Below are positions 51,181 to 54,060 of a stretch of 64,000 bases of DNA, piece after piece (the stretch's first letter is position 1; each line of letters begins with the position of its first letter). The DNA comes from Beijerinckiaceae bacterium (GTDB lineage Bacteria > Pseudomonadota > Alphaproteobacteria > Rhizobiales > Beijerinckiaceae), in NCBI GenBank assembly GCA_025458025.1, contig JALOTF010000002.1:28004-92003 (forward strand), read 5' to 3'. Position numbers and translations under genes: made by a program. The notes under the pieces are model-generated. The model saw only the letters and a program-made list of their open reading frames with translations, had not been told where the DNA came from and searched no databases.

Positions 51181-52374
<1,194 letters not shown>

Positions 52375-52382
52375 GCGTTTAA

Positions 52383-52814
52383 ATGAGGGGCGTACTCATC
52401 CTTGCTAGTTTTTGGTTTCTTGGTTCGGCTGCCTGTGCAGCCGAGTTAAGTATCAAGTGCGGCGCGATGAATGGGTATTCTACCTTTGTTGCCACTGAAT
52501 TGCGTCCTGCAGAGCTACGTCCTGACGCATTACTAAACGGCTCCTACCGTTTCGTTGTTTCGTCGAGTCGAGGTCTGTTTAGAGCCTTTTTCGAATCGGC
52601 GGAGAGCGTAGTCGAAAGAAAAATTGACGACTCGATTGTCGTCAATGGGGGCAATACAATAGTTCTTCGTGGCAAAAATGAAAATGTAGAACAAAAGTTT
52701 TACATAAATGTCGTCAACTCAAGATTTCGTATGGTTTATGTCAGTGAAGTAAAGATGCTTAGCGGTGAAATACAGCTGGGTATTTATGCTGCTGACTGTC
52801 AGAAAACTGGCTGA
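52383..52814 (+). CDS. Uncharacterised secreted protein between sucC and sucD
   Basis: 143 aa with signal peptide [20 protein letters not shown]; noticeably A/T-rich with TTA, CTA, ATA, AGA codons; 8 nt after sucC and 12 nt before sucD. Confidence 0.75.
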
Positions 52815-52826
52815 CTGGAGAGCAAA

Positions 52827-53714
52827 GTGGCCATTCTCATCAACGCGAATACCAAGGTCATCTGCCAGGGCTTTACCGGCAAGAACGGGACCTTCCACTC
52901 CGAACAGGCGATTGCCTATGGCACCAAGATGGTCGGCGGCACCTCGCCGGGCAAAGGCGGTTCCACGCATCTCGGCCTGCCGGTCTTCGACACCGTGGCC
53001 GAAGCGCGCGACAAGACCGGCGCTGACGCCTCGGTGATCTACGTGCCCCCGCCGGGTGCCGCGGATGCGATTTGCGAAGCCATCCAGGCAGAAATCCCGC
53101 TTATCGTCTGCATCACGGAAGGCATTCCGGTGCAGGACATGATCAAGGTGAAGCGCGCGCTCGATGGCTCAAAGTCGCGTCTCATCGGCCCGAACTGCCC
53201 GGGCGTGATGACCGCCGGCGAGTGCAAGATCGGCATCATGCCGGGCAACATCTTCAAGCGCGGCAATGTCGGCATCGTCTCGCGCTCCGGCACGCTGACC
53301 TATGAAGCGGTGTTCCAGACCACGCAGGAAGGCCTGGGACAGACCACCGCGGTCGGCATCGGCGGCGACCCGGTGAAGGGCACCGAATACATCGACATGC
53401 TGGAAAAGTTCCTCGCGGACCCCGAGACCCAGTCGATCATCATGATCGGCGAAATCGGCGGCTCGGCCGAGGAAGAAGCCGCGCAGTTCATCGCGGATGA
53501 GGCGAAGCGTGGCCGCAAGAAGCCGATGGTCGGCTTCATCGCGGGCCGCACGGCGCCTCCGGGCCGTCGCATGGGCCATGCCGGCGCGATCATCGCGGGC
53601 GGCAAGGGCGGCGCGGAAGACAAGATCGCCGCGATGGAAGCCGCGGGTATCCGCGTCTCGCCATCGCCGGCGCGCCTTGGAAAAACCCTCGTCGAGGTTC
53701 TCAAGGGCAAGTGA
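52827..53714 (+). CDS. sucD: Succinate-CoA ligase subunit alpha
   Basis: GTG start; [64 protein letters not shown]. Confidence 0.97.
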
Positions 53715-53718
53715 TGCG

Positions 53719-54060
53719 ATGCGCATGACGGATATCCCCTTCGGCACGACCGACTGGAGCGACATCCCCGTGACCCGCCACCCGGCGGAAGCGGGCGAGG
53801 CACTCTGGCGGACCCGACATTTCGGGCCGGAGGGGAACCCAATCCGCGTGCGCATGGTCGAATACACGCCGGGCTATGTTTCGGACCATTGGTGCGAAAA
53901 GGGCCATGTTCTGCTGTGCCTGGAGGGTGAACTGGAAACCACCCTCGCCGATGGCCGGCATTACGTGCTCAAGCCCGGCATGAGCTATCAGGTCGCCGAT
54001 GGCGCGGAGCCGCATCGCTCCGTTTCGCCCAAAGGCGCCAAACTCTTCATTGTCGACTGA
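53719..54060 (+). CDS. DHCW-motif cupin family protein
   Basis: FGTTDWSDIPVTRHPAEAGEALWRT...YVSDHWCEKGHVLLCLEGEL; 4 nt after sucD. Confidence 0.85.
   Translation: MRMTDIPFGTTDWSDIPVTRHPAEAGEALWRTRHFGPEGNPIRVRMVEYTPGYVSDHWCEKGHVLLCLEGELETTLADGRHYVLKPGMSYQVADGAEPHRSVSPKGAKLFIVD

Follow-up and report, generated by a model that had tools for sequence, protein, structure and literature searches.

The window, the whole 64,000-nucleotide stretch of DNA analysed here, contains a TCA-cycle gene cluster in the order mdh-sucC-sucD-sucA-sucB. An open reading frame of 143 aa with an ATG start, ORF X, is located between sucC and sucD on the same strand, leaving gaps of 8 nt and 12 nt between the sucC stop at 52374 and the GTG start of sucD at 52827. 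Both suc genes are intact and of full length, as described in the first-pass annotation. The features of the region are:

51181-52374, + strand: sucC (succinyl-CoA synthetase beta subunit), 5' flank, 397 aa, intact
52375-52382, + strand: 8-nt junction from the sucC stop to ORF X, GCGTTTAA, with no Shine-Dalgarno (SD) sequence; anti-SD duplex energy -2.5 kcal/mol
52383-52814, + strand: cargo ORF X, predicted exported protein of no known family, under purifying selection in frame
52383-52442, + strand: predicted signal peptide as read from the sequence, residues 1-19 or 1-20, cleavage near the boundary between ACA and AE
52458-52460, + strand: Cys26 codon, kept in the other carrier, G007
52797-52799, + strand: Cys139 codon, kept in G007
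52817-52822, + strand: sucD SD sequence GGAGAG, directly 3' of the cargo stop; duplex energy -6.4 kcal/mol
52827-53714, + strand: sucD (alpha subunit), 3' flank, 295 aa, intact

The sucD start reads GTG-GCC in this genome (G000) and in G007, while it is ATG-TCC or ATG-TCT in the other congeners compared. A cupin-like ORF is present at 53720-54060, between sucD and sucA. The sucD/sucA junction is variable too, since about 350 bp separate the two genes in this genome and in many congeners, compared with just 80 bp in G007 and G010.

ORF X, with 45% GC, sits in a region of 63% GC. Its composition (GC 45.0%, GC3 42%) differs from that of sucC (61.5% and 85%) and sucD (65.0% and 84%), as had been claimed, and the codons singled out earlier are all found in it (CTA and TTA twice each, ATA and AGA three times each). 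Among the 33 ORFs of the window longer than 1 kb, GC3 has a median of 0.74 and a minimum of 0.58.

ORF X is a single-copy gene in this genome, and a homologue with 94% protein identity is found in one of 16 congeners, G007 (JADCBP010000012.1, deposited as a 'Methylobacterium sp.' MAG). Since G007 is a separately assembled second species with the same layout, an assembly chimera as the source of the sucC-X-sucD arrangement is ruled out. The two ORF X sequences differ at 6, 1 and 10 first, second and third codon positions, and the changed codons comprise nine synonymous and eight non-synonymous ones, giving a dN of 0.025, a dS of 0.098 and a dN/dS of about 0.25. The probability of so few non-synonymous changes under neutrality is 0.007 in a site-count test that ignores transition bias. 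ORF X is thus under purifying selection in this frame and is a genuine gene, not a chance ORF.

The N-terminus of the product looks like a type I signal peptide with n-, h- and c-regions and an AXA cleavage site, in agreement with the first-pass annotation. The predicted mature protein has the two cysteines noted before, Cys26 and Cys139. The signal peptide contains a further cysteine, Cys18, and since the lipobox-like context of this residue (SAAC) is weak, a lipoprotein is a minor alternative. The statement that the protein belongs to no recognised family holds in profile and sequence searches, which returned no Pfam family even at E values up to 10, no NCBIfam family at E values up to 0.1 and nothing better than an E value of 1.8 among PDB sequences. 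No homologues were found in plasmids, phages or viral contigs, and a profile search of 398 genomes of the order gave no match apart from its own. Two hits were judged to be due to chance, one to a PHROG (E value of 0.15) and one to an internal stretch of the 1,218-position PADLOC profile of PglX (E value of 0.007). AlphaFold, given the two ORF X sequences, produced a poor model (pLDDT 52, pTM 0.48) that offers only a hint of a beta-rich fold, in which the first mature strand carries one of the two cysteines and the last strand the other. With a model of this quality, the Foldseek search, in which no PDB entry matched below an E value of 0.1, is meaningless as a fold search. The protein is a taxonomically restricted orphan that is probably exported, most likely a small, beta-rich periplasmic protein of about 123 aa when mature, in which Cys26 and Cys139 would form a disulfide staple.

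The genus sample has one genome per species, and the comparison is between species, not strains. The sucC/sucD spacer is empty, with a length of 9-21 bp, in 10 of the 17 genus genomes; it is filled in the other seven by six mutually unrelated single genes, each of which fits the gap almost exactly. ORF X itself accounts for two of the genomes; the other five cargoes are a soluble protein of 116 aa and four small membrane proteins, all different, of 105, 119, 85 and 74 aa. ORF X is thus one of many unrelated cargoes at a recurrent insertion site inside a TCA operon, a feature that the first-pass annotation missed. The acquisition that it proposed is supported: ORF X is missing in 15 of the 16 congeners and in every other relative searched, its composition is foreign, and the site is empty in other genomes. 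The idea of a one-off insertion is incomplete, since the junction is a recurrent landing site.

The same site is occupied far beyond the genus; contrary to what had been assumed, between roughly a quarter and a third of relatives do not have sucC and sucD side by side. Matches to sucC are found in 239 of 248 family genomes, and sucC and sucD, the two conserved flanking genes, are present in more than 95% of them. Measured between match ends, the sucC-sucD distance exceeds 100 bp in 27 of 113 pairs in the family, counting genomes in which a single contig lists both genes, and in 50 of the 136 places of the order-wide sample; the 50 are spread over 25 of 46 families. These are raw counts in which a few gaps represent longer sucC frames or rearrangements. 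The apparent filled site in G312 has a longer sucC reading frame and a true gap of 9 bp, so the order count of 50 is slightly too high, and the gap of about 19 kb in G311 (L147) contains chromosomal genes, among them ccmB and cytochrome c assembly genes, and so is an operon rearrangement and not a cassette. In two f20 genomes, G377 and G347 (L127 and L128), sucC has an apparent long C-terminal frame extension ahead of the gap to sucD, the open frames being 685 and 876 aa long.

Cargo was read directly at 21 family and 20 order sites. VapBC toxin-antitoxin pairs are present in G129, G126 and G296, and a PIN toxin also in G114 and G384. Other cargoes are a 4-oxalocrotonate tautomerase in three genomes of one genus, DUF1579 proteins in G034, G094 and G316, cupins in G381 and G316, a Cu/Zn superoxide dismutase with a small membrane protein in G346, a methyltransferase in G080, exported proteins of about 200 aa and several small membrane proteins. 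VapBC, DUF1579, a 70-aa TM/coiled-coil protein and the family shared by G006 and G231 recur in different genera or families. The membrane and coiled-coil protein, 68-71 aa long, is found at sucC/sucD in three families of the order (G040, L027; G069, L134; G087, L141), where it could be either ancestral or repeatedly gained. The filled sites of G284, G167 and G184 have no convincing ORF.

Other junctions were compared in a control set of 41 clusters that is enriched for filled sucC/sucD sites. The mdh/sucC gap does not exceed 156 bp in 38 of these 41 clusters, the sucA/sucB gap, measured in 40 genomes, falls within 32-128 bp in 39, and the atpH/atpA and atpA/atpG gaps are 17-127 bp, without insertion, in all 16 intact genus loci. 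Since these junctions are nearly free of insertions, the sucC/sucD pattern does not reflect a general growth of spacers. A 644-bp atpA/atpG gap in this genome was rejected as an insertion, the atpA match breaking off at 281 of 503 positions; on contig C95 (L070) atpG lies about 640 bp beyond this partial match, and a frameshift in the draft assembly is the probable cause.

A second hotspot of the genus is the nuoC/nuoD junction (L071-L085). In six congeners the two genes are 4-10 bp apart; in nine genomes the junction carries 328-972 bp, and the cargo differs among them. The cargo consists of DUF2059-type exported proteins, membrane proteins, a 105-aa soluble protein and a four-helix protein of the 23S-rRNA-IVP type (PF05635); in this genome it is a 110-aa membrane protein (C124, outside the window). 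In G008 the nuoC end occurs twice (L072:650-735 and L072:1061-1145), the second copy, of 86 bp and 85% identity, lying between two cargo ORFs and being preceded by a nuoD-like start (MIEQLNVRNF...). This duplication looks as if it was made by recombination at CGCAATTT, a motif common to the nuoC end and the nuoD start.

The cargo genes appear to be read through their neighbours. No promoter-like site was found around ORF X, and terminator-like sites inside it are at chance level only; with gaps of 8 and 12 nt, co-transcription with sucCD, as suggested earlier, is likely. The starts of all seven genus cargoes lie at -4 to +19 nt relative to the sucC stop, with an ATGA overlap in two cases, and none of the genes has an SD sequence of its own, their duplex energies being -2.5 to -4.4 compared with a random median of -3.0. 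The energies at sucD starts are -3.5 to -9.4, and the cargoes finish near the sucD start, in most cases with a usable sucD SD sequence. The simplest reading of cargo starts without an SD sequence is termination-reinitiation after sucC, by which the cargo would be translated at a modest level.

The genus cassettes are whole genes which, given their positions relative to the sucC stop and the sucD start, add a cistron while the subunits stay unbroken. The filled sucC/sucD gaps inspected contain only cargo ORFs and show no integrase, transposase or flanking repeat, and a search for copies of the sucC or sucD ends within the gaps gave only short matches of 10-41 bp. Cassettes that lack mobility genes may move by homologous recombination in the conserved suc genes on either side. 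In a housekeeping tree (mdh, sucA, atpA, nuoD), G004, whose site is empty, and G010, which has a different cargo, come between the two carriers, G000 and G007. Between the carriers, the dS of ORF X (0.098) is about a third of that of sucC and sucD (0.27), a difference to which its unusual composition could contribute in part. Homoplasy in the close clade is significant for sucC (p = 0.002) and not for sucD (p = 0.36), sucA or mdh; at the genus level nearly all genes tested give a recombination signal, and identity along the suc flanks is mosaic. The tree, the dS values and the sucC homoplasy fit an exchange through the flanks, without proving it. ORF X is considered, with a probability of about two in three, to be a foreign single-gene cassette in a recurrent sucC/sucD site inside the mdh-sucCDAB operon, resembling the minimal mobile elements (MMEs) of Neisseria, exchanged through its flanks and read by coupling to sucC.

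The carrier pattern could also arise by loss and replacement. The block of sucC tail, ORF X and sucD would then have descended vertically since before G000, G004, G007 and G010 split, with loss in G004, replacement in G010 and no movement between species, as the proximity of G000 and G007 in the housekeeping tree would allow. This history is rather unlikely, given that the synonymous divergence of ORF X is only about a third of that of its flanks and that G004 and G010, which group with G007, lack the gene. It is improbable that the spacer grew by random DNA in which ORF X arose de novo, so that tolerance of junk and not gene transfer makes the hotspot. The orphan status of ORF X, its two known carriers and the three filled sites with no convincing ORF would suit such an origin, but much of the cargo elsewhere belongs to known, widespread families, and a gene of such low GC content for its region, with a predicted signal peptide and under purifying selection, does not look like random spacer.

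Reuse of one junction across many genera might suggest a site-specific mobile element or integrase that recognises the sucC 3' end and inserts cassettes there. The absence of mobility genes and repeats from the gaps inspected, together with cargo boundaries that vary within the genus from -4 to +19 nt at one end and from -2 to -37 nt at the other, makes this very improbable; moreover, copies of the flanks inside the inserts are limited to the short matches mentioned above, and nuoC/nuoD, which is unrelated in sequence, is a hotspot as well. That the ORF X protein serves succinyl-CoA synthetase or the TCA cycle as a functional accessory, its position reflecting a physical or regulatory partnership, is barely credible and a specific link to the cycle is not supported: its exact place between the subunit genes on the same strand and its purifying selection would agree with such a role, but a signal peptide would take it out of the cytoplasm, six unrelated genes share the site in one genus in which most congeners have it empty, and cargoes elsewhere (VapBC, tautomerase, DUF1579, superoxide dismutase) suggest no common partner function.

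With the recurrent use of sucC/sucD, an isolated oddity becomes a testable general pattern, in which a junction of a core metabolic operon repeatedly takes in whole foreign genes across an order. The site also offers a natural experiment on how operons acquire orphan genes, how these are translated without signals of their own, and why sucC/sucD and nuoC/nuoD accept cargo and sucA/sucB and the atp junctions do not. A tentative generalization, possible rather than probable, is that subunit-gene junctions of essential respiratory and TCA enzymes serve as order-wide 'safe harbours' for single-gene cargo without a promoter or SD sequence. Such cargo would be read only via the essential upstream gene and would be hard to delete without damage to the operon, so that selfish (toxin-antitoxin) genes and orphan envelope genes would accumulate and be swapped there.

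The literature searched, with incomplete coverage, contains no description of sucC/sucD as such an insertion site, yet parts of the arrangement resemble known systems. VapBC (PIN-domain) modules are themselves recurrent cargo at sucC/sucD in several genera, but ORF X, which has neither a PIN nor an antitoxin domain, does not belong to the toxin-antitoxin genes. The MMEs of Neisseria were reportedly described by Saunders & Snyder in 2002 and by Snyder et al. in 2007. The sucC/sucD site, too, is bounded by two conserved genes, has six unrelated cargoes in the genus and many more beyond it, often of low GC content, and no mobility genes are seen there. MMEs are defined as pairs of conserved genes that enclose differing whole-gene cassettes, which are taken up through homologous recombination (PMC3082526). 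Unlike in MMEs, the variation at sucC/sucD is known between species, genera and families and not between strains, the site lies in a tight operon between the subunits of one enzyme, the cargo has no ribosome-binding signal of its own and recombination in the flanks is only partly supported. In models of operon evolution, ORFan or horizontally acquired genes are inserted into existing operons. ORF X is likewise a new small gene in a pre-existing operon whose neighbours are unbroken, but its distinctive feature relative to these models is that the same sucC/sucD junction is reused by unrelated genes across an order.
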